Below are positions 7,839 to 20,649 of a stretch of 64,000 bases of DNA, piece by piece (within the stretch, counting starts at the first letter, position 1; each line of letters opens with the position of its first letter). Position numbers and translations under genes: made by a program. Source of the stretch: Ilumatobacter sp. (GTDB taxonomy: Bacteria; Actinomycetota; Acidimicrobiia; Acidimicrobiales; Ilumatobacteraceae); contig NZ_JASJCS010000006.1 in the NCBI RefSeq assembly GCF_030065885.1, positions 1-64,000 on the forward strand, written 5' to 3'. The notes beneath the pieces are model-generated. The model had not been told where the DNA came from. It did not search any database and was given only the letters and a program-made list of their open reading frames with translations.

Positions 7839-8321
7839 TCAGCCGCCCATCATCGCTCGCCAGTCGGGCACGTCGGGTGCGTCGGGCTCCCACGACCGGA
7901 TGAACGTGACGACCGCCTTGATCTGCTCGGACGTCAGCGGGCCGCCGTAGTCGAGCGAGTAGGCGCTCATCTGGCTGCCGGGGATGCCGACGGCGATCAG
8001 GGTGCGGGCCTGGTCGTCGGTCGACGACTGGAGGAACTGCTCGGAGTTGAGTGCAGGGCCGATGCCTCCTTCGCCGTTGAGGCCGTGGCACGACGAGCAG
8101 TTGAACTGCCAGACGCCCTCGCCCTTGACCGCCAGCGAGGCCAACTGCTCCTCGCGGGCGTCGCTGCGCGACCCCGGCTCGTACCACCGGTAGAACGGGA
8201 ACACGGCGGCCATCAACGCCAGCAGCACCACGCCGGCGACCATCCACGTGTTGGTCGACCGCTCGAGCTCCTCGTCGGTCGTGTAGTCGTAGGTGTCGTC
8301 CCGGTCCCGAGTCTCGCTCAT
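7839..8321 (-). CDS. Membrane-anchored monoheme cytochrome c of the bc-type complex
   Basis: A 160-aa protein with a charged cytoplasmic N-terminus, one transmembrane helix (about 27-45) and a periplasmic cytochrome c domain. The heme site is CSSCH at residues 75-79. A likely axial Met lies in GSQMSAYS. It is last in the minus-strand operon; its ATG overlaps the Rieske stop (ATGA). By position it should accept electrons from the Rieske protein and pass them towards the terminal oxidase encoded divergently. It ends WRAMMGG. Confidence 0.88.
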   Translation of the reverse strand: MSETRDRDDTYDYTTDEELERSTNTWMVAGVVLLALMAAVFPFYRWYEPGSRSDAREEQLASLAVKGEGVWQFNCSSCHGLNGEGGIGPALNSEQFLQSSTDDQARTLIAVGIPGSQMSAYSLDYGGPLTSEQIKAVVTFIRSWEPDAPDVPDWRAMMGG

Positions 8322-8821
8322 CCGTGCGACTCCTCCGCGCAGGACGGGCCGGTCGGCGGCTCGTCGATCGTCTCGACGCCGGGCGCCGGGCCTTCCTCGG
8401 TGGTGCCGGTGTCGATGTAGATCAAGCCGTCGACGCCGACCTCGACCGGGTGCTGGTCCATGCCCCGCGGTGCCGGCCCGGCCCGGAACTCGCCGGCGCG
8501 ATTGAACACCGAGCCGTGGCACGGGCACTCGAACTGGCCTGACGACTCGCACCACGGCACACCGCAGCCGAGGTGGGTGCACTTGCGGGAGAGCGCTCGG
8601 ACCTCACCGTCGATCCTGACGAGGTAGGAGCGCGCGGCCGGCACCTCGATCACGCCGGTGTCGGGAACGGACTCGGGCGGGATCGCCCGCACCTTGCCAC
8701 CGAACCCGCGGGCCTCACCGGGCCGCAGCAGGTCCCACGAGGTCCACGCGCCGGCGGCGGCGACGAGGCCGAGGCCGGTCTGCCACATACGGGTCAAGAA
8801 GTGTCGTCGAGGCAGACTCAC
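8318..8821 (-). CDS. Rieske [2Fe-2S] protein of the bc-type complex
   Basis: A 167-aa Rieske subunit. It starts with basic residues and a Tat-like RRHFLTRM followed by a hydrophobic anchor (about 12-30). The cluster ligands are in CTHLGC (C81, H83) and CPCHGS (C99, H102), with C86 and C101 placed for the stabilising disulfide. An acidic tail extends beyond the fold. It oxidises quinol at the Qo site of cytochrome b and reduces cytochrome c. Both ends overlap neighbours by four bases, so translation is coupled to cytochrome b and to the cytochrome c gene. Confidence 0.93.
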   Translation of the reverse strand: MSLPRRHFLTRMWQTGLGLVAAAGAWTSWDLLRPGEARGFGGKVRAIPPESVPDTGVIEVPAARSYLVRIDGEVRALSRKCTHLGCGVPWCESSGQFECPCHGSVFNRAGEFRAGPAPRGMDQHPVEVGVDGLIYIDTGTTEEGPAPGVETIDEPPTGPSCAEESHG

Positions 8822-9396
8822 AGCTCACCGTGCCATTCTTCCCAGGGCCAGACCCAGCCCCAGTTGGGGCCGCGGAACATGAAGCCGATCAGCGTCAACA
8901 CGATCCAGATCACGAGGAACGTCGTGAACGTCGTGACCGCCACCTTGCGGTGACGCGGTTTGATGAAGCGGCTGCGGTCGATGTACGGCAGCGCGATCAG
9001 CCCGATGACGATGGTGCCGGGCACGAGCACGCCCGCCACGAGCGGGTGCCAGATCGCCAGCAGCTCCTGCAGCGCAGCGAAGTACCACGGCGCCTTCTCG
9101 GGGTTCGGGGTGACCTGCGGGTTGGCGACGTCGCGCAGCGGCGCGTCGAACAGCAACGAGATCACCATCACGACGAGCAACGTCGCCATCGCCACGACGG
9201 CGTGCCGCACGAGGAGGTGCGGCCACACCATCACGGTGTCGTCACGGTCGATGATCTTGCGCTCGCCGACTGCGGGCTTGCCGGGCACGACGCCGAGCAC
9301 GCGCTTGCCGCCGACGACCTGCGGCGTGCCGCTCAGCTCGACCGGGGTCGACGTCGCGTCGGCTCCTGCTGCGGCGTCGATCGTGTCGTCACTCAT
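8818..9396 (-). CDS. Cytochrome b C-terminal subunit (subunit IV-like)
   Basis: A 192-aa protein with three hydrophobic helices (about 65-85, 112-137 and 153-175), as in subunit IV of b6f complexes and the C-terminal half of bc1 cytochrome b. The Qo-site loop is present as NPEKAPWYF, a variant of the PEWY region. A soluble N-terminal extension of about 55 residues precedes the helices. It pairs with the N-terminal heme-binding half encoded just upstream, whose stop it overlaps by 8 bases. Split cytochrome b is known in several Gram-positive lineages. Confidence 0.9.
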
Positions 9397-10189
9397 CGGC
9401 GTCCTCCGCCTGCTGGTCGAACATCGCGTCCTTGCGCCACCGCCAGAGATGGATCATCAGGACGAAGATCAAGATCGTGGGCAGCACGGCGACGTGGAGC
9501 ACGTAGAACCGCAGCAGCGTCGACGAGTCGACCGTCGGCCCACCGAGCAGCACTTCCTTCACCTGCTCGCCGATGAACGGCACGTAACCGGCCATCTCGG
9601 TGCCGACCGTGACCGCCCAGAACGCCAGCTGGTCCCACGGCAGGAGGTAGCCGGTGAACGACATCAGCAACGTCAGCAGCAACAGCACGACGCCGATCAC
9701 CCAGTTGAACTCACGCGGCGGCTTGTAGGCGCCGCGGTAGAAGACCCTGGCCATGTGGGCGGCAACGGCGAGCACCATCAGGTGCGCCGACCAGCGGTGC
9801 ACGTTGCGCACGTATTGACCGAACGGCACCTCGGTCTGGATCGTCTGGATGTTCGTGTACGCGTTGGCCGGCGACGGCACGTAGAAGAACATCAGGTAGA
9901 CGCCCGACGCCACCAGGCTGCCGAGCAACACGGTCGAGATCACGCCGAGGTACCACGAGTACCGGAACCCGAGCTCCTTGCGGCGGATCTTGACTGGGTA
10001 GATGTGCAGCAGGAAGCTCGACCAGTGGGCTGCCGCACGGTCGCGCGGAGTGACCCTGCGCGGCGACCGGAAGATCGACGTGCCGATCGGCGTCTCGCGG
10101 ACGCGATCGAGCAGTTGGTCGACCCGGTCCTCGTCTCCGTCCTCGCGGGCAGCCGGTTCGACGTCCGGCTTGTCGTCGGTGAGACTCAT
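9389..10189 (-). CDS. Cytochrome b N-terminal subunit (b6-like)
   Basis: A 266-aa diheme subunit. Heme ligands are H131 and H145 (spacing x13) in the second helix, [15 protein letters not shown], and H232 and H247 (spacing x14) in the fourth helix; the 13/14 pattern is that of cytochrome b6. A charged cytoplasmic leader of 50 residues precedes the core. GGGAGG lies about ten bases before ATG 10189. The 125-base gap upstream, after the GltD-like gene, contains imperfect GCGAGCGAG repeats and no gene. Together with the next two genes it forms the quinol-oxidising core. Confidence 0.92.
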
Positions 10190-10314
10190 CGGTCAGCACA
10201 CCTCCCAGTGCAGGCTCGACATGTCGTGCGCGAGTGAACAGGCGCTCGGACGCGAGCGAGTGAGCGCCAGCGAGCGAGCGGCAGCGAACGGCCTGCGTGG
10301 CCGGGGAACGCTGA

Positions 10315-12117
10315 TCACGGCACCCCCACGCCCTTCCACATGCCCATCGACAAGGCGTCGGGCGGGCAGCGTTCGATGCAGAGCGCGCAGCGGATGCAGC
10401 GCTCCTCGTCGAGCAGCAACGCCGTCGAACCGGCTTCACCGCCGTCGACCTCGTCGGACGGCACGAGTGAGATCACATCGACCGGGCAGACGTCGGCGCA
10501 CAGCGCGCACAGCACGCACTTGTCGACATCGAGGATGATGTTGGCGAAGCAGCGCAGGCAGCGCGCCGCCTCGCAGCGGGCCTGCTGCTCGGTGAAGCCG
10601 AGCTCGACCTCGGCGAGACCGATCCGCCGACCGGTGTCGAGCGTCGGGACCGACACGCGGGCGATCTGGTCGTAGTCGTCGTCGAGGCGGTGGAACTGCG
10701 AGAGCTTCACGAACGTGGCCGGCTGCTCCTGCTCGAGATCGTCGACATCACCGCCGAAGGCTCGGTGGATGTCGGCCGCCGAGCGGCGCCCGTCGGCGAT
10801 GGCGTCGATCAACGTCCGCGGCCCCTTCGCCGCGTCGCCGCCGGACCAGACGCCGAGCATGGTGGTGCGGCCGGTGTCGTTGTCGATCTGGATGGTCCGC
10901 CGCGGGCTGACCTCGGGGCCGCTCGCACCGAGCGCGTCGAGGTCGATCGCCTGGCCGATCGCGAGGATGACGGTGTCGGCGTCGAACACCTGCCGGTCGG
11001 TCTCGTCGAAGTCCGGCGCGAAGCGCCCGTCGGCGTCGAAGACCGAGTTGACGCCGATCGTCTCGATCCCCGCCACCCGGCCGTCCTCGACGAGGATGCG
11101 GGCGGGGCCGCGGCGAGGTACGAACGCGATGCCCTCGTGCTCGGCCTCTTCGACCTCGAAGTCGTGGGCCGGCATCTCGGCGCGGGACTCGAGCGAGATC
11201 ACCGTCACCTGACGGGCGCCGGCCCGGGCGGCCGTCCGTGCCACGTCGATGGCCTCGGTCATCGCCGAGCGCTGGTCGGCGTCGATGTCGTCGTCGGACG
11301 CCACTGTCGCTTCGCTCGTAACCTCCGACCCGTACTCGGAGGCCCTGAGCGCGGTGCGGGCGGCGTCCATCGCGACGTCGCCGCCGCCGATCACCACCAC
11401 CCGCTCGCCGACGTCGACCGAGAACCCGCGGTTCATGTTGATGAGGAACTCGATCGCCTTGAACACGCCGTCGGCGTCGCCACCCTCGATGTCGAGTCCG
11501 CGCCCGAGCGTCGCGCCGATTCCCAGGAACAGCGCATCGTGGCGCTCCATCAGCTCGTCGAGGGTCACGTCGACGCCGAGCCGGGTGTCGTAGTGCACCT
11601 CGACCCCGAGGTCGAGGATCGCCTGGATGTCGGCGCCCAGCACGTCGCGGTCGAGCCGGTACTCGGGGATGCCGAGCCACATCGCGCCGCCGAGCTTGTC
11701 GGTGGCCTCGTAGACCGTGACCTGGTAGCCGTGCCGGCGCAGGTCGTGCGCGCACGCCATGCCGGCGGGGCCGCCGCCGACGATGCCGACACGCTCCTGC
11801 TTGTCGGAGCGCGGGGGCGCAGCGACCTTGTTCCACACTCGACCGTTGCCCCGCTCGGGGCCGAACTGCTCGGTGACGAACCGCTTGAGCGCACGAATCG
11901 CGATCGGTCGATCGATCTCGCCGCGCCGGCAGGCATCCTCGCACGGCGCCGCACAGACCCGTCCGCAGACCGATGCGAACGGGTTCGGCAGGCGGGCGGT
12001 CAGGTAGGCGAGCTCGTCGTCGCCGTCGGCGATCGCCGCGACGTACATCCCGGCGTTGGTGTGCACCGGGCACGCCGCGAGACACGGGATGTTCGTGTCG
12101 TAGTACTCGAGCTCCAT
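10315..12117 (-). CDS. GltD-like NAD(P)H flavoprotein with terminal ferredoxin domains
   Basis: A 600-aa soluble iron-sulfur flavoprotein. Residues 1-95 are the Cys-rich domain seen in glutamate synthase small subunits (C12, C16, C51, C55, C59, C63). An FAD site follows (GIVGGGPAGM at 111-120), then an NAD(P) site (VVVIGGGDVAMDAA). The C-terminus adds two [4Fe-4S] motifs: C534/537/540/544 (CVLCALCADVC) and C574/577/580/584 (CIRCALCIERC). There is no glutamate synthase large subunit here; the gene sits inside a bc-complex operon. I infer a cytoplasmic electron-input module between NAD(P)H or ferredoxin and the membrane complex. ATG 12117 overlaps the upstream stop (TGATG), which favours it over the start 13 codons earlier. 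Confidence 0.85.
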   Translation of the reverse strand: MELEYYDTNIPCLAACPVHTNAGMYVAAIADGDDELAYLTARLPNPFASVCGRVCAAPCEDACRRGEIDRPIAIRALKRFVTEQFGPERGNGRVWNKVAAPPRSDKQERVGIVGGGPAGMACAHDLRRHGYQVTVYEATDKLGGAMWLGIPEYRLDRDVLGADIQAILDLGVEVHYDTRLGVDVTLDELMERHDALFLGIGATLGRGLDIEGGDADGVFKAIEFLINMNRGFSVDVGERVVVIGGGDVAMDAARTALRASEYGSEVTSEATVASDDDIDADQRSAMTEAIDVARTAARAGARQVTVISLESRAEMPAHDFEVEEAEHEGIAFVPRRGPARILVEDGRVAGIETIGVNSVFDADGRFAPDFDETDRQVFDADTVILAIGQAIDLDALGASGPEVSPRRTIQIDNDTGRTTMLGVWSGGDAAKGPRTLIDAIADGRRSAADIHRAFGGDVDDLEQEQPATFVKLSQFHRLDDDYDQIARVSVPTLDTGRRIGLAEVELGFTEQQARCEAARCLRCFANIILDVDKCVLCALCADVCPVDVISLVPSDEVDGGEAGSTALLLDEERCIRCALCIERCPPDALSMGMWKGVGVP

Positions 12118-12923
12118 CACACGCGGCGCTCCCGGTGCGCGTACCAGAGCGCCCACATCGCAGCGACGATCGCGCCGGCCCAGATGCCGACGGCGATCAG
12201 GTCCTGCGCGGCGCGCGGCAGGTCCTGCACCGTGTCGAGCTCGAGCACCTGTGCCGGCAGCACCGTCGTGGCGACGATGAGCCCGACCACGATCACGCCG
12301 GTCTTCATCCAGGCGTCGAGCCAGGTGATCTCACGCCGGTCGTGCGCGGCGATCACGCGTGGCCCGAGCACCAACGCGCCGAGCCCCAGCGCGATGGCGA
12401 ACGCGACGAACATCGCGTAGTTCGACAGCAACGGCAGCTCGGTGCCCGCGGCCGGACCGGTGGAGACCTCGGGGGCGGGACCGGCGGGGGCCGCGAACCC
12501 GGACTGGATGTAGGCGACGACCGACGAGATGTCGGCATCGCTGAGCGTCGACTGCGCCGGCATCACACCGTCGTAGACCTCGTCGCCGACCGTGATCTCG
12601 CCGGTCCGCCCGTTGCGGATGACGTCTTCGAGATAGGCCGCGTCGTCGACGTTCGGGTTGTCGATCAGCGGTGGGAAGCTCCCCGAGAGTCCGACGCCAC
12701 CCGGCTGATGGCACGACGAGCAGACCGCCGTGTAGACCTCGGCGCCCTCGCGGAGCGTCTCGTCGCTCGGGCCGGCCTCGATGTCGCCGGCCGGCGTCGC
12801 GAACGGGGCAGCCACGACGGCGAACGCGACCACGGCGATCGGCAGCCACCGCGCCCAGCCGGCGCCGACGCGCGCCGGCGGCGAGCAGGCGTCATCATCA
12901 GCGAGTTGTGTGGCGTCGGGCAT
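12117..12923 (-). CDS. Cytochrome c with C-terminal membrane helices
   Basis: A 268-aa protein opening the minus-strand respiratory operon. An N-terminal helix (about 25-44) leads to a periplasmic monoheme domain with CSSCH at 68-72 and GVMPAQSTLSD as the probable axial Met region. Three further hydrophobic segments follow (about 165-188, 200-222 and 240-258). The C-terminal membrane part is unusual for a plain cytochrome c and suggests a built-in subunit of the complex. ATG 12923 is chosen because GGGGAGA precedes it; the open frame runs 20 codons further upstream. The stop overlaps the GltD-like start. Confidence 0.85.
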   Translation of the reverse strand: MPDATQLADDDACSPPARVGAGWARWLPIAVVAFAVVAAPFATPAGDIEAGPSDETLREGAEVYTAVCSSCHQPGGVGLSGSFPPLIDNPNVDDAAYLEDVIRNGRTGEITVGDEVYDGVMPAQSTLSDADISSVVAYIQSGFAAPAGPAPEVSTGPAAGTELPLLSNYAMFVAFAIALGLGALVLGPRVIAAHDRREITWLDAWMKTGVIVVGLIVATTVLPAQVLELDTVQDLPRAAQDLIAVGIWAGAIVAAMWALWYAHRERRV

Positions 12924-12987
12924 CGATCTCCCCGGTCGGTGCGGCGGTCGGATCACTGCATTCTCCACGGGCGCCCACCGCACAGAC

Positions 12988-13068
12988 AGGGACGTTGGTC
13001 CCTAGCTCACCGGATTTTCGACGAGCACAAGCTCGCAAGCTCGGAGAAAGGGACGTTGGTCCCTAGCT
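12988..13068. repeat. Pair of direct 20-bp repeats, each a small hairpin
   Basis: AGGGACGTTGGTCCCTAGCT occurs at 12988-13007 and again, identical, at 13049-13068. Each contains inverted arms AGGGAC/GTCCCT around GTTG. Both lie in the 216-base divergent region between the bc-type operon and the oxidase operon. They may be operator sites shared by both operons or dispersed extragenic palindromes. Confidence 0.7.
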
Positions 13069-13139
13069 GGTCAGACGCGGCGCCAACTCGAATGGTCAGG
13101 AACTGCCGGGGGCCGGCACCGATCGACGGGAGGACTGGG

Positions 13140-13319
13140 ATGGACGAATCGAACACGGGCGACGCCGCCCCACTCGAGACGGCGCTCGACGGCGAGCTTC
13201 CCGAGGAGCACTTCAAGCCGACCGGCACGCTCTTCGTGCTCGTGCTCTTCGTGGCGACGATCGTGCTGCTCTGGGCGTCGGTCTACGTGATCCTCCTCAG
13301 CAGGGGCGTCACGCTGTGA
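13140..13319 (+). CDS. ba3-type cytochrome c oxidase subunit IIa
   Basis: A 59-aa single-helix protein: a charged leader, EEHFKPTGTLFVLVLFVA, then a hydrophobic run to VYVILLSRG. This matches the small subunit IIa of Thermus-type ba3 oxidases in size, in the KPxG before the helix and in the RG after it. ATG 13140 follows GGGAGGAC. It opens the plus-strand oxidase operon, 37 bases ahead of subunit II. In the ba3 enzyme this helix replaces one of the two subunit II transmembrane helices. Confidence 0.88.
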   Translation: MDESNTGDAAPLETALDGELPEEHFKPTGTLFVLVLFVATIVLLWASVYVILLSRGVTL

Positions 13320-13356
13320 GCGGACCGGCAGCGGTGCCGAGGGAAGGTGCGACGCG

Positions 13357-13989
13357 ATGACCGACGTGCTCGAGCGGGAGACCGGCGATCCAGGGGGACC
13401 CGACGATGCCGATCTGACGATGGGCATCGACCCGTGGGAGCGCAACTGGATGCTCTTCTCGGTCGTGCTGCTCGTGGTCTTCGCCGCCGCCGTCACGATC
13501 GCCGGCTTCGCGGCCGGGTTCCAGCTCCCCGGCGCCGAGTCGGAAGTCGACCCGCGCACGATCGCCAGCGAGGGCCGGTGGGCCGAGCCGGGTCTGCGAG
13601 AGGTCGGCGACGGCCAGTTCGAGGCGTATGTGATGTCGCAGCTGTGGAGCTTCTCGCCCCGCGAGCTCGTCGTGCCGATCGACGCCGAGGTCGACATCTA
13701 CGTGACGTCGCAAGACCTCCAGCACGGCTTCAAGATCACCGACACGAACGTCAACATGCAGGTCGTCCCGGGCCAGGTGTCGAAGCTGACGTACACGTTC
13801 GACGAGGTCGGCGAGTTCCCCTACATCTGCACCGAGTACTGCGGTCAGGGGCATGCAGCCATGTTCGGAACGGTCAGGGTCGTGTCCGAAGCCGAGTTCG
13901 AAGCGCTCCAGTCCGGAGACGGCGTCACGACGGGTGACGACGCAGACGCGGGAGGCGAAGCCGCCGCAGCCACGGAGGACGACGGATGA
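13357..13989 (+). CDS. Cytochrome c oxidase subunit II (CuA), ba3-type
   Basis: A 210-aa protein with one transmembrane helix (about 32-54) and a cupredoxin domain. CuA ligands are complete: H123 (LQHGF), C158, E160, C162, H166 and M169 in CTEYCGQGHAAM. One helix rather than two fits the presence of the separate subunit IIa. An Ala/Asp-rich tail follows. CuA takes electrons from a periplasmic cytochrome c, several of which are encoded around it. The stop overlaps the start of subunit I (ATGA). Confidence 0.95.
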   Translation: MTDVLERETGDPGGPDDADLTMGIDPWERNWMLFSVVLLVVFAAAVTIAGFAAGFQLPGAESEVDPRTIASEGRWAEPGLREVGDGQFEAYVMSQLWSFSPRELVVPIDAEVDIYVTSQDLQHGFKITDTNVNMQVVPGQVSKLTYTFDEVGEFPYICTEYCGQGHAAMFGTVRVVSEAEFEALQSGDGVTTGDDADAGGEAAAATEDDG

Positions 13990-15680
13990 CCATCGCCGAA
14001 CGACCACAGACCGGCACCGCCCGGCCTCGGTACGAGCTCACCCGCTGGGAGCGACGGTTCATCGGCGGCCACATCTGGATCGCCATCGTCGCGCTCGGCA
14101 TCGGCAGCGTGATCGGCCCGCTGCAGGCGCTGGAGTACTCGAACGTCGACCTCTACCAGTACCTCGAGCCGATCCTGCAGAGCTACTACCAGGGCCTCAC
14201 GCTGCACGGCGTGCTCAACGCGCTCGTGTGGACGACGTTCTTCATCGTCGGGTTCACCACCTTGACGACGATCGTCGGGCTCCGGCGACCGCTCAGCCAC
14301 CCGAACATCAACCTCGCCGGGTTCGTCACGATGGTCGTCGGCCTGCTGCTCGCCGCCGTGCCGCTGCTGCTCGACCAGGCGACCGTGCTCTACACCTTCT
14401 ACCCGCCGCTCGAGGCGAGCTGGGCGTTCTACGTCGGCCTCACGCTCGTCGTCGTCGGCAGCTGGATCGAAGGCGTCGGCTTCTACCTGACGCTGGCGGC
14501 GTGGCGGAAGGAGAACCGCGGCGTTCGCTCGCCGTTCGTCGCGCTCGGCGGCGTCATCAACGCCGCGATGTGGCAGATCGCCACCCTGGGCATCGCGGTC
14601 GAGATGCTGACGATGCTCATCCCGTGGTCGCTGGGCATCACCGACGCCACCGACCCCGAGCTCGCGCGCACCTACTTCTGGTTCACGGGCCACCCGCTCG
14701 TGTACTTCTGGCTGCTCCCCGCCTACGTCTCGTGGTACGGCATGCTCCCGAAGCAGGCCGGCGGCAAGCTGTTCTCCGACTCGCTCGCCAGGCTGGCGTT
14801 CTGGATGTTCCTGATCGTGTCGGTGCCCGTCGGGTTCCACCACCAGTTCGTCGACCCCGGCGTACCGCAGGTGTGGAAGTGGATCCATGCGCTGCTCACC
14901 TACTCGGTGTTCTTCCCGTCGATGCTCACGGCGTTCACCGTGATCGCGTCGCTCGAGTACGCGGCGCGCAAGCGCGGCGGCACGGGGCTGATCGGATGGG
15001 TGCGGGCGCTGCCGTGGGACGACCCCTCGGTCGCCGCCCAGCTCCTCGCCGGCATCCTCTTCATGTTCGGCGGCATCGGCGGCCTGACCAACGCGTCGTA
15101 CAACATCAACCTCGTCATCCACAACACCGCGTGGGTGCCCGGACACTTCCACCTGACGGTGGCCACCGCGGTCACGCTGTCGTTCATCGGCATCACGTAC
15201 TGGATGGTGCCGATGCTCACCGGCAAGCAGCTGTGGGGCCGCCGGATCGCCGTGGCGCAGGCCTGGACGTGGTTCGTCGGGATGGTGGTCTTCTCCAATG
15301 CGATGCACATGCTCGGCCTGCTCGGCGCGCCGCGCCGCACGCCGCTGGGTGACGCGCCCTACGTGCCCGAGGAGTGGGACGGCCACCTGCTGCGGGTCTC
15401 GATCGGCGGCACGATCCTGCTGGCCGCCGTGCTGATGTACCTGCTGGTGATGTACAAGACCGTGCGCGGGCCGAAGGCCGCCGATCCGGCCGACGTGCCC
15501 GACATGCCGATCGCCGAGTCGCTGCGCCACCCGCAGCTCACGCCGGTCTGGCTCGACCGCTTCAAGCCGTGGCTGATCGCCGCCGGCATCTTGCTGGTGC
15601 TCGCCTACGGCCCGCAGCTCGTCGACCAGATCCTCAACATGAACCTCAACGCGCCGGGCGTCGACTTCGAGGTCTGGTGA
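13986..15680 (+). CDS. Cytochrome c oxidase subunit I, ba3-type (B family)
   Basis: A 564-aa heme-copper oxidase catalytic subunit with about 13 hydrophobic helices. Ligand-bearing segments are LTLHGVLNAL (low-spin heme), TGHPLVYFWLLPAYV (CuB His, with the Tyr), FHHQFVDPG (CuB His pair) and WVPGHFHLTVATA (high-spin and low-spin heme His). The sequence style (YFWLLPAYVSWYGMLPK) is that of B-type, ba3-like oxidases, which usually have high oxygen affinity and reduced proton-pumping stoichiometry. It is coupled to subunit II by a four-base overlap. Confidence 0.95.
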   Translation: MTIAERPQTGTARPRYELTRWERRFIGGHIWIAIVALGIGSVIGPLQALEYSNVDLYQYLEPILQSYYQGLTLHGVLNALVWTTFFIVGFTTLTTIVGLRRPLSHPNINLAGFVTMVVGLLLAAVPLLLDQATVLYTFYPPLEASWAFYVGLTLVVVGSWIEGVGFYLTLAAWRKENRGVRSPFVALGGVINAAMWQIATLGIAVEMLTMLIPWSLGITDATDPELARTYFWFTGHPLVYFWLLPAYVSWYGMLPKQAGGKLFSDSLARLAFWMFLIVSVPVGFHHQFVDPGVPQVWKWIHALLTYSVFFPSMLTAFTVIASLEYAARKRGGTGLIGWVRALPWDDPSVAAQLLAGILFMFGGIGGLTNASYNINLVIHNTAWVPGHFHLTVATAVTLSFIGITYWMVPMLTGKQLWGRRIAVAQAWTWFVGMVVFSNAMHMLGLLGAPRRTPLGDAPYVPEEWDGHLLRVSIGGTILLAAVLMYLLVMYKTVRGPKAADPADVPDMPIAESLRHPQLTPVWLDRFKPWLIAAGILLVLAYGPQLVDQILNMNLNAPGVDFEVW

Positions 15681-15726
15681 CCCGACCGTCGGGTCGGCCG
15701 CGCGTCCACTGTCGGATGAGCACATC

Positions 15727-17922
15727 GTGAGCCGCCTCGACCCGAAACTGGTTCCGGCACTCGAGCGGGCCACCTACGCGGCGGAAGCCCCGCTGCGCAA
15801 GGTGGTCCGCTCGCATCGCCTCAACCCGCTCCCTCACGCCGGCACGATCAGCGTGTTCCTGTTCGGCGTGGTGGTCGTGAGCGGTGTCTACATCACGTTG
15901 TTCTTCCAGTTCGGCTTCGAGGCGTCGCACCGCTCGGTGCGGGCGATGGACGACCACGTCATCCAGTCCGTGGTTCGCACCGTGCACCGCTACTCGTCGG
16001 CCGCGATGGTGCTCACGACGCTCGTCCACGCCTGGCGGACCTTCGTCGCCGGCCGCTTCCGCGGTCCACGTCGGTGGCGGTGGACGACGGGCGTCGCATC
16101 GCTGCTAGTGGTCTGGCTCGCCGGCGTGACGGGGTACTGGCTGGTCTGGGATCGCCGGGCGCAGGCCCTCAACGAGGCGACCGACGAGCTGTTCGGCGGG
16201 CTCGGCGTGGTCTCGTCGTTCATGGTGCGCAACGTGTACGGGCCCGACGCGGGCAGCGGCTGGGGCGTGCTGTTCGTGATCTGGCTGGCACACCTCGTCC
16301 TCACCGTGATCATCGGGTACTTCCTCTGGCGACACCTCCGGCGCTCACGCCTGCGGATCCTGCCGCCTCGCTTCTGGATGGCACTGATGCTCGGCGCACT
16401 CGTCCTCGTGTCGGTGCTGTTCCCCGCCGACCTGCTCGAGCGCGCCGATCTCTCCCAGACGGTCGGCGATCTGCCGCTCGATCCGTTCGTGCTGTTCCTC
16501 CTGCCGCCGCTGCTCGGCAACTGGGCGTGGCTGGCGGCGATCGTCGGCACGGCAGCGATCATCGCGGCGCTGGTCGCTCCGCACGTGCGGCCGGCCGCGC
16601 CGCCGGTGGTCGAGATCGACGAGGACGCCTGCACCGGCTGCGATCTGTGCGTCGTGGACTGCCCGTACGTCGCGCTGTCGCTCGCCGACCGGTCGACCGC
16701 CGACCCCGACGGCGGCACGCAGGCCCGCCGGCCGGTGGCCGTCGTCGACGCCGACGCCTGCGTGGGGTGCGGCATCTGCATCGGCTCGTGCTCGTTCGGC
16801 GCGATGACCCTGCCGGGCTTCCAGGCGCCCGAGCGCATCGACCCCGAGGGTCGGCAGGTCGCGATCGTGTGCGCCCGGCACCACCCGTCGGACGTCGACG
16901 GCGACGGCGGTGAGACCGTGCTCGTCGAGGTGCCCTGCGCCGGCATGGTGCACGCCAATGCGGTCGGTTCGCTGATGCGTTCCGGCGCGGCCGGCGTGCA
17001 GGTCGTCGGCTGCCCGCCGGGCGACTGCGCGTTCGGGCTCGGCAACACGCTGCTCGACGAACGGCTCTCGGGTGCACGCTCGCCCCACGTCCCGCTGCGC
17101 TTCGAGGGCATCGCCGACGAGGACTGGGTGGCGCCCGGCGAGCTCGTCGACGCGCTCGCGGCGCCGAACGCCCATCCCGCTGCGGACACCGAGCGGCCCG
17201 AGGGCAACCGGCGCCTGATCGGGGCCGGTGCCGTCGTCCTCGCGTCGATGGCTGCGGTGGCCGTGGCGACGCAGGCCCCGTACCGCGGCTCGCGCGAGTC
17301 GGGCGTGGTGGCCGTCGTCGACCACACGCCGGGCTTCCAGCTCGAGGGCCAGCCGACGGTGACCGGTCGGCGGGGCGACGCGGTCGACGTCGTCGTCCGA
17401 GCCGACGGTGTCGAGCAGGCACGTCGGGCGGTCCCGGTCAGCGGCGAGACCGCGATCGGCGTCGTGAACGTCGACCTCGTCCCCGGCGCGAGCCAGGTCG
17501 AGGTGGTCCTCGTCGAGGGCGCCGACGAGACCACGCTCTTCGCCGGCGAGGTCGAGTTGGCCGACGGCGAGCGGTTCGTCGTGCAGGCCGTCGACGTCCC
17601 ACCACCACCCGGGATCGCCGAGGGTCGCGACGTGTTCGCCGACCGTTCCCTCGGCGCCTGCGACGTGTGCCACTCGGTCGACGTCGGCGACGACGGGGTC
17701 GGTCCGTCGCTGGCCGGTGTGGCCACGAGGGCCGAGTCGCGGGTCGAGGGGCTCGACGCCGAGGCGTACCTGCGCCAGTCGGTGATCGACCCCGACGCCT
17801 ACATCGCCGACGGCTACCGAGCCGGGCAGATGCTGCCGATCTACGAAGAGCGCCTGAGCCCCGACCAGCTCGACGCGCTCGTCGAGTACCTCCTCACGCT
17901 CGACGAGGCGGTCCTGCCGTGA
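15727..17922 (+). CDS. Fusion: cytochrome b + two [4Fe-4S] + MvhD-like + cytochrome c
   Basis: A 731-aa protein of unusual composition. Residues 30-210 are a cytochrome b N-terminal domain with H87/H101 and H189/H203, both spaced x13. Two more helices (about 216-234 and 253-286) lead to a cytoplasmic ferredoxin part with CTGCDLCVVDC (302-312) and CVGCGICIGSC (345-355). Residues 378-445 resemble the MvhD [2Fe-2S] domain with C382, C404, C429 and C434; the usual CxxC start is reduced to CARHH. A helix at 497-515 returns to the outside, followed by a beta-rich stretch and a cytochrome c (CDVCH at 645-649, probable axial M702). GTG 15727 is the only sensible start. It lies between subunit I and the SCO genes. 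Electron flow from cytoplasmic FeS through hemes b to periplasmic heme c is inference. Confidence 0.9.
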   Translation: MSRLDPKLVPALERATYAAEAPLRKVVRSHRLNPLPHAGTISVFLFGVVVVSGVYITLFFQFGFEASHRSVRAMDDHVIQSVVRTVHRYSSAAMVLTTLVHAWRTFVAGRFRGPRRWRWTTGVASLLVVWLAGVTGYWLVWDRRAQALNEATDELFGGLGVVSSFMVRNVYGPDAGSGWGVLFVIWLAHLVLTVIIGYFLWRHLRRSRLRILPPRFWMALMLGALVLVSVLFPADLLERADLSQTVGDLPLDPFVLFLLPPLLGNWAWLAAIVGTAAIIAALVAPHVRPAAPPVVEIDEDACTGCDLCVVDCPYVALSLADRSTADPDGGTQARRPVAVVDADACVGCGICIGSCSFGAMTLPGFQAPERIDPEGRQVAIVCARHHPSDVDGDGGETVLVEVPCAGMVHANAVGSLMRSGAAGVQVVGCPPGDCAFGLGNTLLDERLSGARSPHVPLRFEGIADEDWVAPGELVDALAAPNAHPAADTERPEGNRRLIGAGAVVLASMAAVAVATQAPYRGSRESGVVAVVDHTPGFQLEGQPTVTGRRGDAVDVVVRADGVEQARRAVPVSGETAIGVVNVDLVPGASQVEVVLVEGADETTLFAGEVELADGERFVVQAVDVPPPPGIAEGRDVFADRSLGACDVCHSVDVGDDGVGPSLAGVATRAESRVEGLDAEAYLRQSVIDPDAYIADGYRAGQMLPIYEERLSPDQLDALVEYLLTLDEAVLP

Positions 17923-17924
17923 GC

Positions 17925-18395
17925 TCAGGGTTCGGGGAAGATCTCCTCGGTGCCGGACTCGGCGACACCGTCGACCGTACGGGTTCCTCGCAGCACGCCG
18001 TCGGTGCCGACGGTGTACTCGGCGCTGCCGGACGAGTCGCCGCGGGCGGCGGTCACCGTCTCCCACTCGACCGAGAACCGATCGCCGCGCAGCAGGCCGG
18101 TCCCACGCTGGATCGTCCCGGTCACGATCCACTGCACGTCGAAGTCGTCCCCGCCGAGCGGCACGATCGTGACGGTGCCCGAGTACTCGACGCCGCCGGG
18201 GTCGACGCCGTTGACGACGTAGATGCCGGCGATCCCCTCGCCGTCGTCGAGGCTGTCGCCGGGCAACCCGCACATCGCGAGTCCGCCGGCGCTCAGCGCG
18301 ACGAGCAGGACGACGGGCACAGCGAGGCGCCGCCAGATGCTCGAGCTCTCGGGGTTGGTCTCGGGAGTCCCGTCGGCGATCGGGGTGTCGGCCAC
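17925..18395 (-). CDS. Hypothetical membrane-anchored protein
   Basis: A 156-aa protein read against the oxidase operon and ending two bases beyond the fusion gene. It has a hydrophobic helix at about 24-42 (LAVPVVLLVALSAGGLAMCG) and an outer domain with repeated Gly/Asp turns (VEYSGTVTIVPLGGDDFDVQ, YTVGTDGVLRGTRTVDG), suggesting a beta-sandwich. The ATG-less start is taken as GTG 18395, without a strong ribosome site. It leaves only about 30 to 45 bases to the divergent SCO-like gene. I do not recognise a family; exported lipocalin- or FABP-like beta proteins look similar. Confidence 0.6.
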   Translation of the reverse strand: MADTPIADGTPETNPESSSIWRRLAVPVVLLVALSAGGLAMCGLPGDSLDDGEGIAGIYVVNGVDPGGVEYSGTVTIVPLGGDDFDVQWIVTGTIQRGTGLLRGDRFSVEWETVTAARGDSSGSAEYTVGTDGVLRGTRTVDGVAESGTEEIFPEP

Positions 18396-18440
18396 GGCGT
18401 CGACGGTACCGAGGAGTGGCGCATTCCGCGATGGGCGAAG

Positions 18441-19073
18441 GTGATTGCCGCGGTGATGGTGCTGATCGCCATCGGCGGTATGGCGTTCGCCGTCCTGCAG
18501 CCGATCCAGGTGCTTCCCCGGATCCGGCTCGCACCGGGCTACGCCTTCGCCGATGCGACCGGTTCGACGGTCACCAGCGAGGACGGGCGGGGTTCGATCA
18601 CCGTGTACACGTTCGTGCCCCTCGACTGCGGCAGCGAATGCGACGCCGTCGACGAGACGATGCGCCTGGTCCGCGATCGCGTCCCCCGCGAGGTCGATCT
18701 CGGCGACGCCGGCTTCCGGATGGTCACGATCGCGCTCGACCCCGACGCCTCGCCCGCGAGCCTCGCGGCCGCCGCCGAGCGGTCCGCCGGCCGCGGCGAG
18801 GCGTGGACGTGGCTGTCGGGTTCGGCATCGCAGATCGAGAACGTCGTCGGCCTGGGGTTCCGCCGCGGCACCGACCCGGACGACTTCGCTCCCAGCTACG
18901 CGATCGTCGACGGGTGGGGAATGGTGCGCGGCGAGTACCGCTACCAGACGCTCGCCGACGACGCCGACAAGCTGGTCCGCCACATCGGCATCCTCGGCAG
19001 CGAGCTCCGCAACGATCACGGGATCGGCTCGTTCGCCTACGACGCCGCCCACGTCTTCCAGTGCTACCCATGA
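18441..19073 (+). CDS. SCO-like thioredoxin-fold protein, degenerate copper site
   Basis: A 210-aa protein if started at GTG 18441. A better N-terminus (IPRWAKVIAAVMVLIAIGG) begins at ATT 18423, seven bases after GAGGAG, so a rare ATT start is possible. One membrane anchor precedes a thioredoxin-fold domain with the SCO-type CxxxC as DCGSEC. The third copper ligand, the distal His of SCO proteins, is not visible: the matching place reads APSYAIVDGWG. SCO proteins load and reduce CuA. The genuine SCO follows directly, so this paralogue may serve as a thiol reductase or partner in oxidase assembly. Confidence 0.75.
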   Translation: MIAAVMVLIAIGGMAFAVLQPIQVLPRIRLAPGYAFADATGSTVTSEDGRGSITVYTFVPLDCGSECDAVDETMRLVRDRVPREVDLGDAGFRMVTIALDPDASPASLAAAAERSAGRGEAWTWLSGSASQIENVVGLGFRRGTDPDDFAPSYAIVDGWGMVRGEYRYQTLADDADKLVRHIGILGSELRNDHGIGSFAYDAAHVFQCYP

Positions 19074-19080
19074 GGCCCCG

Positions 19081-19779
19081 ATGACGCTCCACGACACCCG
19101 CCCCGACGCCCGGAACGCGACGACGCCACCGCTCGAGGCCGACGGCGCGGCCGTCGACGCCCGGGCACGACCGCGCCGACGCCGACGCCGACGCACCGTG
19201 GCGCTGCTGCTCGGCGCGCCCGTGCTGGTGGTCGTCCTCGCGTGGGCAGCGCTCGAGCTGTTCCGACCCCACCTCTACTCGGGCACGATCATGCAGGCGC
19301 CCGCCGCTGCGCCGTCGATGGACGGCCTCGTCTGGTCGGACGGAACGGCGGTCGACCTCGGCGCATTCGACGGCGACGTCGTCCTCGTCTACTTCGGGTA
19401 CACCTACTGCCCCGACGTCTGCCCGACCACGTTGTCGCAGGTGGCCCGAGCCATCGACCAGGTCGACGACCCTGAACGGGTGCACGTGATGATGGTCTCG
19501 GTCGACCCGGTCCGCGACGAGCGCGCAGCGCTCGGCGACTACGTGCGGGCGTTCGACCCATCGTTCCGTGGCGCCACCGGCGCGATCACAGACATCGAGC
19601 GGGTGGCGTCGACGTACGGGGTCTTCTTCGCCCGCGGCGAGGACACAGGCGGCGGCGGATACACCGTCGACCACACCGCCACGCTGATGGGCATCGACAC
19701 CGAGGGCCACCTCCGGATCGTGTGGCCGGCCGTGCTCGACGTCGACGCGCTCGCGGCGGACCTGGAGGCCCTGCTCTGA
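19081..19779 (+). CDS. SCO1/SenC copper chaperone for cytochrome oxidase
   Basis: A 232-aa membrane-anchored thioredoxin-fold protein. After an Arg-rich leader and a transmembrane helix (about 41-60), the copper site is complete: FGYTYCPDVCPTTLSQ gives CxxxC, and VDHTATLMGID gives the distal His. The domain is of usual size. Family members deliver copper to the CuA site of subunit II. ATG 19081 follows the SCO-like stop by seven bases; its stop overlaps the next ATG (TGATG), so the three copper genes form one transcript with the oxidase operon. Confidence 0.92.
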   Translation: MTLHDTRPDARNATTPPLEADGAAVDARARPRRRRRRRTVALLLGAPVLVVVLAWAALELFRPHLYSGTIMQAPAAAPSMDGLVWSDGTAVDLGAFDGDVVLVYFGYTYCPDVCPTTLSQVARAIDQVDDPERVHVMMVSVDPVRDERAALGDYVRAFDPSFRGATGAITDIERVASTYGVFFARGEDTGGGGYTVDHTATLMGIDTEGHLRIVWPAVLDVDALAADLEALL

Positions 19780-20267
19780 TGCACCCCGGCCGGCGACGGC
19801 CGACGATGCTGCTCGCCGCTGCGCTCGCGAGCGGGGCGTGCGGCTCGAGCTCCGACGCACCGACCGCACGCGACGGCGAGATCGCCGCCGAGGTGGGCGG
19901 GTTCGTCGTCCGCGACGTGTGGACGCGACCGACCCCGCCGGGTTCCGACGAAGCGGCCATCTACCTGACGATCGAGAATCGCGACGCCCCCGACGATCGC
20001 TTCGTCGGCAGCGTCTCGGATCGCTGCATGGCGATGCACCCGCATCTGACGACGATCGACGACGACGGGGTGGCATCGATGACCGACGCCGGCGAGGACC
20101 GGCTCGCGGTGCCGGCCGGCGGCAGCCTGGTGATGGCGCCGACAGCGCTGCACGTGATGTGCCTCGGTCTCACCGGTCCGCTCGAGGCGGGTGACACGTT
20201 CGGGATCGAGCTCCGGTTCGCCGAACACGAACCGGTCGTCGTCGAGGTCGACGTCGAGCAGCGTTAG
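19779..20267 (+). CDS. PCuAC-type periplasmic copper chaperone
   Basis: A 162-aa exported protein. A short Arg-rich signal ends near ASGACGSS, a weak lipobox. The domain shows the PCuAC layout: a Met/His-rich patch CMAMHPHLTTIDDDGVASM, a Gly-rich turn LAVPAGGSLVMAP, then ALHVMCLGL in place of the usual HxM segment. PCuAC binds Cu(I) through the His/Met set and hands it to SCO and CuA. Its position directly behind SCO supports this role. TGATG coupling at 19777-19781 fixes the start. Confidence 0.82.
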   Translation: MHPGRRRPTMLLAAALASGACGSSSDAPTARDGEIAAEVGGFVVRDVWTRPTPPGSDEAAIYLTIENRDAPDDRFVGSVSDRCMAMHPHLTTIDDDGVASMTDAGEDRLAVPAGGSLVMAPTALHVMCLGLTGPLEAGDTFGIELRFAEHEPVVVEVDVEQR

Positions 20268-20337: not shown

Positions 20338-20649
20338 ATGTCGAAGATCTCGTTGATCGCCAAGTTGACCGCCGCCGAGGGGAAGCAGGCCGAGCTGGAG
20401 GACGCGATGCGCAGCGTCGTCGAGGCCGCCGACGAGGAGCCCGGGCTGGAGGTGTATGCCGCCAACGCCGTCGACGACGAGCCCGGCGTCTACTACTTCT
20501 ACGAGATCTATGCGGACGAGGCGGCCCGCGACGCACACGGCACGGGCGACCGGATGCGGGCGGCGATGGGTGCGTTCGCCGGCCTGCTCGGCGGCCGACC
20601 CGAGATCATCACGATGACACCGATCGCCGCCAAGGGCGCTGACGTCTGA
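20338..20649 (+). CDS. Antibiotic biosynthesis monooxygenase (ABM) family protein
   Basis: A 103-aa single-domain protein of the dimeric alpha+beta barrel fold. Typical elements are KISLIAKLTAAEGKQAELE, an EEPGLEVYAANAV turn and VYYFYEIYADEAARDAHGTG, where the conserved EIY/F and His occur. The family holds quinol monooxygenases, heme-degrading enzymes and many proteins without assigned function. It starts at ATG 20338, 70 bases after the copper chaperone, and may be the last gene of that unit. No cofactor-specific residues allow a finer call. Confidence 0.8.
   Translation: MSKISLIAKLTAAEGKQAELEDAMRSVVEAADEEPGLEVYAANAVDDEPGVYYFYEIYADEAARDAHGTGDRMRAAMGAFAGLLGGRPEIITMTPIAAKGADV

Follow-up and report, generated by a model that had tools for sequence, protein, structure and literature searches.

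The window analysed here, a stretch of 64,000 nucleotides from Ilumatobacter sp., an uncultured actinobacterium (contig NZ_JASJCS010000006.1), carries two conserved modules. Module A consists of a flavoprotein, a split cytochrome b, a Rieske protein and cytochrome c; module B combines a multidomain fusion protein with a ba3-type oxygen reductase and with copper chaperones. The genes, called as stop-to-stop open reading frames (ORFs), and the region between the modules are as follows.

7839-8321, minus strand: membrane-anchored mono-haem cytochrome c of module A (PF00034/PF13442); the start is an ATG overlapping the Rieske stop
8318-8821, minus strand: Rieske [2Fe-2S] protein (PF00355)
8818-9396, minus strand: subunit IV-like C-terminal part of cytochrome b with the KAPWY quinol-site motif (PF00032)
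9389-10189, minus strand: b6-type cytochrome b with two H-x13-H haem pairs (PF00033, 160 bits)
10315-12117, minus strand: GltD/Nfn-like FAD/NAD flavoprotein with an N-terminal Fe-S domain (6 Cys) and C-terminal 2x[4Fe4S] (PF14691, PF07992, PF12838)
12117-12983, minus strand: cytochrome c with several hydrophobic stretches, start approximate (PF13442)
12989-13063, no strand: promoter region between the divergent modules, holding GGGACGTTGGTCCC twice (motif search of the window)
13140-13319, plus strand: CoxIIa, oxidase subunit IIa, single helix (PF08113)
13357-13989, plus strand: CoxB, oxidase subunit II, CuA motif read by eye (PF00116)
13986-15680, plus strand: CoxA, ba3-type oxygen reductase subunit I with the GHPLVY tyrosine (PF00115)
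15727-17922, plus strand: fusion of cytochrome b (six helices), 2x[4Fe4S], FlpD, a helix, a beta domain and cytochrome c (Pfam, alignment, predicted fold)
17925-18365, minus strand: small secreted or lipoprotein-like protein adjoining the fusion, without Pfam match
18402-19073, plus strand: SCO-like protein (PF02630, 23.0 bits, cut-off 22.8), recurring in the loci of relatives
19081-19779, plus strand: SCO1/SenC copper chaperone (PF02630, 122 bits)
19779-20267, plus strand: PCu(A)C copper chaperone (PF04314, 84 bits)

The flavoprotein, bc-type complex, ba3 oxidase and hybrid cytochrome b named in the initial annotation were all found with Pfam where it had placed them, and its count of three c-type haem proteins agrees with ours; CoxIIa had been left unnamed. 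A tRNA-Gly called by ARAGORN (12783-12880) sits within a cytochrome c gene and was taken as false. The 17925-18365 protein resembles by eye that of 12764-13192 in locus L050, and belongs to one blastp cluster that also contains shadow ORFs. None of the NCBIfam models listed reached its cut-off for the nine proteins scanned. No Hdr or hydrogenase protein occurred among the cluster proteins scanned with Pfam. No multihaem cytochrome was seen, the cytochromes c of the cluster all being mono-haem. The genome holds two further COX1-family genes and complex I 49-kDa-type genes, and the respiratory branch of the window would therefore be an addition.

The two copies of GGGACGTTGGTCCC (12989-13002 and 13050-13063) lie between the divergent modules and are its only matches in the window, where 0.25 were expected; at least two matches occurred in 2 of 100 shuffles. 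The box is a palindrome, GGGAC-N4-GTCCC, which we take to resemble the DosR box. It occurs at a like place in some relatives and is also found with the genome's own DevR-like regulator. This DevR-type regulator matched no NCBIfam model at its cut-off, and a scan of 12800-13400 for a sigma-70 promoter or terminator was negative. The palindromes, being of the DevR/DosR type, point to control by oxygen or redox state, and we infer that the cluster is controlled by the DevR-like regulator.

The flavoprotein of module A contains FAD and NAD domains and probably about four Fe-S clusters, their number and type being predicted from PF07992, PF14691, Fer4 and conserved cysteines. Fourteen cysteines and Glu310 were conserved in all 26 aligned sequences and two more cysteines in 25 of them, and the best fold match of the predicted model (pLDDT 70) was Nfn-ABC (9bov). 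In the window, the gene shares an operon with those for the Rieske protein, for subunit IV and for the b6-type part of the split cytochrome b. The flavoprotein-cytochrome b-Rieske unit was present in all 11 flavoprotein loci taken from other genomes, of which two lacked a separate subunit IV match and ten came from genomes other than the three fusion holders of the phylum sample; in that sample, the flavoprotein occurred in 12 of 396 genomes (E<=1e-100). KAPWY was conserved in all 19 aligned subunit IV sequences, and the Rieske motif CTHLGC...CPCHGSVF retains the Ser and has Phe in place of Tyr beside the cluster. Cytochrome b6 of the window has zero cysteines, and haem c_n is therefore absent from it. 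One of its histidines is a candidate match to the interface-haem ligand of the Kuenenia models but has no value as a test, since a similar His occurs in the genome's other complex, which has no flavoprotein. Actinobacterial bcc-aa3 (QcrABC) has an unsplit QcrB and a di-haem QcrC. The window is unlike it in its split cytochrome b, and scored 111 bits for NCBIfam QcrB (cut-off 500) and 23-26 for QcrC (cut-off 200).

In module B, CoxA matched 3eh3 best among solved chains (490 bits), followed by 1ehk, labelled BA3-type (480 bits), with only 45-54 bits for mitochondrial-type chains. It retains the active-site tyrosine, and GHP[LI]VY was present in every Acidimicrobiia and Chloroflexi subunit I row listed, fragment L068 excepted. 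With the GHPxVY Tyr, a CuA-type subunit II (PF00116), a single-helix IIa (PF08113) and a ba3 enzyme as nearest solved relative, the haem-copper enzyme is by sequence a B-family ba3-type oxygen reductase. A crude pattern scan placed a CoxIIa-like small ORF ahead of coxB in 44 of 56 sequences, the window included. The solved ba3 oxidase compared here, from Thermus thermophilus, has subunits I, II and IIa, the active-site Tyr and CuA in common with the window, where copper chaperones and the protein joining cytochrome b, [4Fe4S], FlpD and cytochrome c lie alongside.

Pfam recognized Cytochrome_B, two Fer4 sites, FlpD (PF02662, 39.8 bits, cut-off 22.3) and Cytochrom_C in the fusion, the structure of which was predicted with a pLDDT of 92.8. 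Six helices precede the Fe-S part and one precedes cytochrome c, which would therefore put each domain on the right membrane side; the short stretches flanking the Fe-S part hold few positive charges (1 each). All 14 cysteines are assignable as cofactor ligands. Among 57 aligned sequences, 12 Fe-S cysteines were invariant, as were two of the four haem-b histidines, the other two nearly so; the FlpD cysteines C382, C404, C429 and C434, likewise invariant there, would bind [2Fe-2S]. For the FlpD part, a match was found in chain 9sw2_D, a hydrogenase subunit D. Because Asp252, at the likely quinol-site position, is invariant, the fusion may handle quinol and not merely act as a wire. Cytochrome c was fused in 43 of 68 sequences and encoded by a separate upstream gene in 21; the fusion of the near relative L016 has no CxxCH in frame.

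Relatives of the fusion, mostly MAGs, came from a collection scan by two short peptide patterns, which gave 99 loci, of which the best 80 were used, and is not a census. Given these 99 loci and the conserved cofactor residues, the fusion is not a chance product. Among near kin it is rare: of 148 genomes sampled from the order, only that of the window itself has it (E<=1e-30), the sampled member of the same genus having none, and in the phylum it was found in three of 396 genomes (E<=1e-18). Spread on plasmids was rejected: three plasmid records matched, two in the cytochrome c part only, while the third covered 51% of the query and lies in a cluster that also has cyoE, SCO and an oxidase-type gene.

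Among the 55 relatives whose loci extend 2.5 kb upstream and so could be assessed, 53 had the fusion and CoxA in one locus. Neighbourhoods were read with profiles built from the same loci, and absence of the flavoprotein was called from one query (E<=1e-60). Outside Proteobacteria, 20 of 67 relatives had the flavoprotein in the same locus as the fusion, in two phyla and four gene orders: divergent (window, L016), convergent and downstream of the fusion (L034), colinear after it (L047, L050, L051, L091) and before it (L052, L066, L069). It lay elsewhere in the genome in 13 more, and two were doubtful; in the remaining 32 no ortholog was detected at E<=1e-60, two short 46% matches aside. Orthologs were lacking in 25 of 34 Chloroflexi-type versus 7 of 33 Acidimicrobiia-type fusion genomes. 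The co-occurrence of fusion and flavoprotein implied by the initial annotation thus holds in part: it is frequent compared with the 12 of 396 genomes in the phylum sample, but a constant association was rejected, with 32 of 67 genomes lacking the flavoprotein and flavoprotein units occurring in genomes without the fusion. For the same reasons, the locus represents two modules that are often linked, not one obligatory machine, and module B would work without the flavoprotein in many genomes. The link between the modules is strongest in Acidimicrobiia-type genomes, 26 of 33 having the flavoprotein, and module A is not obligatory; the linkage in some relatives of two phyla suggests a respiratory branch. 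Beyond the known members, neighbour clusters comprised ORFs resembling cyoE, Rrf2 and Crp, along with many antisense shadow ORFs, and no flavoprotein-like cytoplasmic partner appeared in the clusters listed (at most 22) for fusion loci.

Parts of this arrangement have counterparts elsewhere. In HdrA-FlpD (MvhD) systems and Qmo complexes, FlpD and Fe-S modules connect to flavoproteins; the window cluster shares these modules, with no Hdr or hydrogenase protein among those scanned. Proteobacterial eNOR-type clusters have in common with the window coxB-coxA followed by a cytochrome b-[4Fe4S]-FlpD protein, but Gln replaces the subunit I Tyr and the core protein, which is shorter, has no cytochrome c domain; the plasmid example has the order coxA-cyoE-SCO-cytochrome b protein. 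Neither Rieske nor flavoprotein matched in the sequenced stretches examined of 13 such loci. The ba3-a1 operon of Magnetospirilli, as excerpted, includes SCO genes, and its subunit I has no Tyr (PMC6431628). For module A, the excerpted account of Kuenenia stuttgartiensis describes Rieske/cytochrome b complexes with an NAD(P) flavoprotein (Kustd1480-1485 and Kuste4569-4574), which are proposed, there too no more firmly, to pass quinol electrons to NAD(P) (PMC12954380). The same text gives 9bp5, identical in chain sequence to 9bov, as structural neighbour of the Kuenenia flavoprotein subunit, and reports the Ser/Phe pair in the Rieske protein Kustd1480, at +335 mV (PMC12954380). By these descriptions, both have a b6-like split cytochrome b, a Rieske protein and, in the cytoplasm, an NAD(P) flavoprotein carrying several Fe-S clusters. 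Kuenenia has hexa- and octahaem cytochromes, haem c_n in models and, for one complex, nitrite as proposed sink, whereas the window has mono-haem cytochromes c, a cytochrome b6 without Cys, and a ba3 oxidase and the fusion adjoining. The domain set of the fusion is that of RME88945.1, for which Table A3 of PMC8756737 lists cytochrome b6, DMSOR_beta-like, FlpD and C1 cytochrome domains, with neither neighbourhood nor function given in the excerpts.

We tentatively favour, at somewhat below even confidence, a reading in which the two linked modules form an additional branch used when oxygen is low or the redox state has changed, ba3 serving as the high-potential sink and the flavoprotein as the end facing NAD; we infer the cofactors of the branch, the path and direction of its electrons, and menaquinol and NAD as its substrates. 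Module A would oxidize menaquinol. One of the electrons would reach ba3, and then oxygen, by way of the Rieske protein and cytochrome c, and the other, at low potential, would travel via the b haems and the flavoprotein Fe-S clusters to NAD+; this is the scheme proposed for Kuenenia with oxygen replacing its sink. Module B would couple a B-family oxygen reductase to an electron-transfer protein of its own: two b haems of the fusion would span the membrane, [4Fe4S] and FlpD would be cytoplasmic, and the outside cytochrome c could face CuA, giving a second conduit from cytoplasm to periplasm that carries electrons from a low-potential Fe-S or flavin donor to the same oxidase. We count for this branch the CoxA-fusion linkage, the four gene orders, cysteine placement, helix sides, the likeness to Nfn-ABC, cytochrome c fused or upstream, KAPWY, the Rieske Ser/Phe pair, the extra COX1 and complex I genes, and the DevR-type boxes with their regulator. 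Against it stand the 32 of 67 genomes without flavoprotein, the absence of haem c_n and multihaem cytochromes, Asp252 and the few positive charges by the Fe-S part. We also know of no need for reverse electron flow in this organism.

Other readings share some of this evidence. The single supercomplex of the initial annotation, an electrogenic NADH oxidase branch in which cytochrome c and ba3 receive electrons from NAD(P)H or ferredoxin through the flavoprotein, FlpD/[4Fe4S] and b haems, would suit the shared loci (20 of 67), the flavoprotein in 26 of 33 Acidimicrobiia-type fusion genomes, the 9sw2_D match and the fact that FlpD domains pass electrons to flavoproteins in Hdr systems. It appears improbable, however, given the complex I-type genes, the 32 fusion genomes without flavoprotein, and a flavoprotein that accompanies the Rieske module in every one of the 11 loci taken from other genomes, mostly without the fusion. 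Only marginally less improbable is that the modules adjoin merely through joint switching-on at low oxygen under DevR-type control, exchanging electrons only via the general quinone and cytochrome c pools: the common promoter with its boxes and the occurrence of either module alone fit this, but other arrangements, some colinear (L050, L066), stay together without a divergent promoter.

The fusion itself could be an assembly factor that helps the oxidase to mature by reducing copper, haem or cysteines on the outer side of the membrane, much as CcoG serves cbb3 oxidases to some extent. The adjoining SCO and PCuAC genes, a cyoE-like gene nearby in some Chloroflexi and Proteobacteria (by eye, the plasmid example excepted) and the association of the core with eNOR-type enzymes are consistent with such a role. 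It seems distinctly unlikely, as the fused or neighbouring cytochrome c and invariant Asp suggest electron-flow catalysis and CcoG, to our knowledge, has no b-type haems. That the window enzyme is a nitric oxide reductase (eNOR) is suggested by GHSSQQ, with the eNOR Gln, in four proteobacterial subunits I adjoining relatives of the core protein. The eNOR mark is Gln in place of the subunit I active-site Tyr (PMC8756737, as excerpted). Because window CoxA has the Tyr, this very remote reading was rejected; GHP[LI]VY in the Acidimicrobiia and Chloroflexi rows listed (L068 excepted) and the best matches to ba3 chains also argue against it. It is conceivable, if rather unlikely, that the fusion is a Rieske-less cytochrome b with a quinol site (Asp252), its own cytochrome c as high-potential and Fe-S/FlpD as low-potential acceptor, and hence a single-chain quinol-bifurcating enzyme, or one running in reverse driven by ferredoxin or flavoprotein, that feeds ba3 or, in Proteobacteria, eNOR.

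The kind of module A (Kuenenia, PMC12954380) and the domain set of the fusion (RME88945.1, PMC8756737) are already on record in the excerpts of these sources. New here is the divergent promoter with its two putative DevR/DosR-type palindromes. No title or abstract among the literature matches listed describes this gene combination, and no study of the fusion as partner of B-family oxidases or eNOR-type enzymes was found among them. Transfer of one quinol electron uphill to NAD(P) by a Rieske/cytochrome b complex is an open proposal for anammox bacteria (PMC12954380, as excerpted), and a mono-haem version beside an oxygen reductase would offer another system in which to test it. The fusion would be a partner protein shared by B-family oxidases and enzymes of the eNOR type, and the promoter boxes indicate when to look for it. 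If the bifurcating role of the fusion is true, its place beside an NAD-linked Rieske complex would make the locus an oxygen-driven generator of low-potential electrons.

The locus consists of two divergent transcription units that meet at about 12.98–13.14 kb, and their gene coordinates in the initial annotation were borne out; genes for CoxIIa and for a small minus-strand protein are additions to its gene list. The minus-strand unit (module A) encodes, in order, a cytochrome c with hydrophobic stretches, a flavoprotein, a b6-type cytochrome b, subunit IV, a Rieske protein and a cytochrome c. The plus-strand unit (module B) encodes CoxIIa, CoxB, CoxA and a fusion protein; two SCO proteins and PCuAC follow beyond the small minus-strand gene. 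Individual features are as follows.

10315–12117, minus strand: flavoprotein
15727–17922, plus strand: fusion of cytochrome b, two [4Fe4S] sites, FlpD, a helix, a beta domain and cytochrome c
17925–18365, minus strand: small protein adjoining the fusion, no Pfam match
20338–20649: small protein of the antibiotic biosynthesis monooxygenase (ABM) type, 3' of the copper chaperones

The small minus-strand protein has a look-alike in Chloroflexi (L050, 12764–13192). A tRNA-Gly called by ARAGORN at 12783–12880 lies inside a cytochrome c gene and is probably a false call. Module A is of a known kind and the ba3 oxidase is known, and the domain set of the fusion has one previous listing, in Table A3 of PMC8756737. 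No description of the combination of both modules, its conservation in two phyla, the eNOR-type cousins or the promoter boxes was found among titles and abstract beginnings, which covered few subscription papers.

The fusion matches the Pfam families Cytochrome_B (residues 36–204), Fer4 (sites from 294), FlpD (399–449) and Cytochrom_C (630–725). Its AlphaFold2 model is confident (pLDDT 92.8, pTM 0.88), with long helices at 35–58, 78–107, 113–139, 179–204, 215–231 and 267–286, followed by the Fe-S/FlpD part, a helix at 493–514, the beta domain and the cytochrome c. Among solved structures, the top Foldseek matches were cytochrome b of complex III, covering the cytochrome b part only. His189, His203 and twelve cysteines are invariant in 57 aligned sequences, His87 and His101 nearly so, and all 14 cysteines of the window protein can be placed as ligands (8 + 4 + 2 of the haem-c motif). 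Asp252, also invariant in the 57 sequences, aligns to the Glu position of the quinol-site PEWY motif; the four Proteobacteria in the alignment have [LI]DW[FY] at this stretch. Because stretches 1–34, 105–119 and 203–216 hold 7, 5 and 5 Lys/Arg and the opposite loops 2, 3 and 1, the Fe-S part is predicted to lie in the cytoplasm and the cytochrome c outside; the short stretches 287–300 and 480–493 hold only one Lys/Arg each. The cytochrome c is in frame in 43 of 68 sequences, including that of the window, and is encoded by a separate upstream gene, mostly adjacent, in 21; neither arrangement was found in four (L016, L042, L058 and L076, of which L042 stops at a contig end).

The fusion is patchy in near kin: at E ≤ 1e-30 a single genome among 148 from the order has it, and at E ≤ 1e-18 three among 396 from the phylum, the window's own MAG (5.04 Mb, 200 contigs) being counted in both. 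Relatives at loci L042 (77% over residues 2–297), L016 (69%) and L014 (64%), together with a tree of 57 sequences, put the window's genome within Acidimicrobiia, close to Ilumatobacteraceae. From the best 80 of 99 relatives, 67 were of the Acidimicrobiia/Chloroflexi type and 13 of the proteobacterial type. CoxA accompanies the fusion in 53 of the 55 loci with 2.5 kb upstream, the exceptions being L052 and L071.

The initial annotation had expected the fusion and the flavoprotein to co-occur, and this held in part. The flavoprotein shares the locus in 20 of 67 cases (10 of 23 where 8 kb was covered on both sides). For the remaining 47, whole-genome searches (26 + 21 genomes; 6 + 11 matches) located an ortholog elsewhere in 13 (66–82% identity) and a doubtful match (45%) in two (G568, G569); with one query at E ≤ 1e-60, none was found in 32, including G543 and G557, where 46% identity over 250 residues was scored as none. 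Presence thus amounts to 26/33 for Acidimicrobiia-type and 7/34 for Chloroflexi-type fusions, types being assigned by record titles, or by the tree for four titled only 'bacterium'; L037 ('bacterium') and L040 ('Actinomycetes') were counted as Acidimicrobiia-type, yet stand among Chloroflexi in the tree. The background frequency is 12/396 phylum genomes (E ≤ 1e-100, the window's own among them) and 15/199 in a Chloroflexi class with a Chloroflexi query. Two of three fusion holders in the phylum carry the flavoprotein and the third, G316, does not (Fisher p 0.0025, treating genomes as independent and assuming the same 396 genomes for both searches, as shared handles suggest).

Modules A and B are joined in four gene orders, and their staying together through these argues for selection. 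Counting against linkage are the 32 genomes without the flavoprotein and also the Chloroflexi locus L093, whose whole-genome search found no flavoprotein; the two modules may merely be co-regulated. In L093, the fusion is followed directly by genes for cytochrome b, a Rieske protein and cytochrome c (12583–15903). Module A is a unit of its own, since all 11 flavoprotein loci outside the window continue with cytochrome b and Rieske genes; a separate subunit IV match follows in nine and a cytochrome c in ten, the contig ending in the last.

The flavoprotein contains Fer4_20, Pyr_redox and C-terminal 2x[4Fe4S] domains (Pfam). Fourteen cysteines are kept in 26/26 aligned sequences and two more in 25/26, as is Glu310, at a strand end in the NAD domain, in all 26. 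An acidic residue at such a position usually denotes NAD rather than NADP. The best solved match by sequence and fold is Nfn-ABC (model pLDDT 70, C-terminal part poor); 9bp5, with a chain sequence identical to this match, is a structural neighbour of the flavoprotein of the anammox bacterium Kuenenia (PMC12954380), and the transfer of one quinol electron to NAD(P) has been proposed for Kuenenia-type complexes (PMC12954380). The window Rieske protein has the same Ser/Phe pair beside its cluster as Kustd1480, at +335 mV (PMC12954380), and the subunit IV motif KAPWY is kept in 19/19 aligned sequences. Another cluster for split cytochrome b, Rieske protein and cytochrome c is present in the window's genome (L006, G000:C142, 1794–5868, minus strand), with a gene for a 138-aa two-cluster ferredoxin where the flavoprotein would be, followed by NuoA-like and NuoB-like ORFs, as read from translations.

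Subunit I in the window best matches ba3-type chains, with histidines and tyrosine kept, and subunit IIa is present. The proteobacterial kin of the fusion (L074–L080 without L076, L084–L088, L090, L092 and L094) are shorter, comprising cytochrome b, Fe-S and FlpD (Pfam, L077). A coxA-type gene shares the locus in 10/13; L079 has none in 9.7 kb upstream, and almost no upstream sequence was covered for L085 and L090, also without one. GHSSQQ occurs in each of the four proteobacterial subunits I whose whole sequence was inspected, and Gln in place of Tyr is a recognition criterion for eNOR (PMC8756737), a comparison prompted by PMC6431628 and PMC8879329. With partners of both the Tyr and the GHSSQQ kind, the fusion core accompanies two kinds of B-family haem-copper enzymes, and the proteobacterial protein, mostly behind eNOR-type oxidase genes, could be the eNOR electron donor. 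On a Defluviimonas plasmid (L094), the fusion-core gene occurs with cyoE, SCO and hemerythrin genes.

Both window copies of GGGACNNNNGTCCC are within the divergent promoter (0.25 expected; at least two in 2/100 shuffles). The stricter box GGGACNTTNGTCCC occurs in 10/121 loci, in all ten near the oxidase gene start: two stretches of the window contig, L012/L019 (one genome), L016, L017, L022, L023, L028 and L042. Perfect boxes number 8 in 37,199 bases around coxB ORF starts versus 4 in the other 1,118,977, where the outside rate predicts 0.13 near starts; with one mismatch there are 13 versus 1.4 expected. L042, whose coxB ORF extends far upstream, supplies two of the four outside boxes. Most relatives examined, including all Chloroflexi, have no perfect box around the coxB start. 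Genome-wide the box occurs seven times and the reversed control never. One GGGACNTTNGTCCC box (L122, G000:C65 near 5908) lies between divergent genes for a DevR-like response regulator (best solved match DevR, 250 bits; next 142) and a PAS-domain histidine kinase; among the matches listed, neither reached an NCBIfam cut-off except for the generic PAS-domain model TIGR00229. Further box loci are L123, L124 (before a metallo-beta-lactamase/rhodanese gene), L127 (before a membrane protein) and L128. The box resembles the DosR box, and in mycobacteria the DevR-type systems respond to low oxygen, NO or CO. We infer control of the divergent promoter by oxygen or redox state. Regulator ORFs assigned by eye were seen near other loci, of the Rrf2 type at L041, L043, L055, L056, L060–L064, L072 and L073, and of the Crp/Fnr type at L055, L056, L060, L062, L063, L071, L073, L077, L078, L088 and L090.

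In the most likely reading, module A would oxidise menaquinol, the high-potential electron passing via cytochromes c to the ba3 oxidase and the low-potential electron via the flavoprotein to NAD+, a putative direction. The fusion would provide a second input to the oxidase from the cytoplasm, with a putative donor and putative physical contact; less probably, it may serve assembly. Since the genome encodes two further COX1-family proteins (contig C62; 522 and 102 bits) and complex I 49-kDa-type proteins, this respiratory branch is an additional one in the organism.
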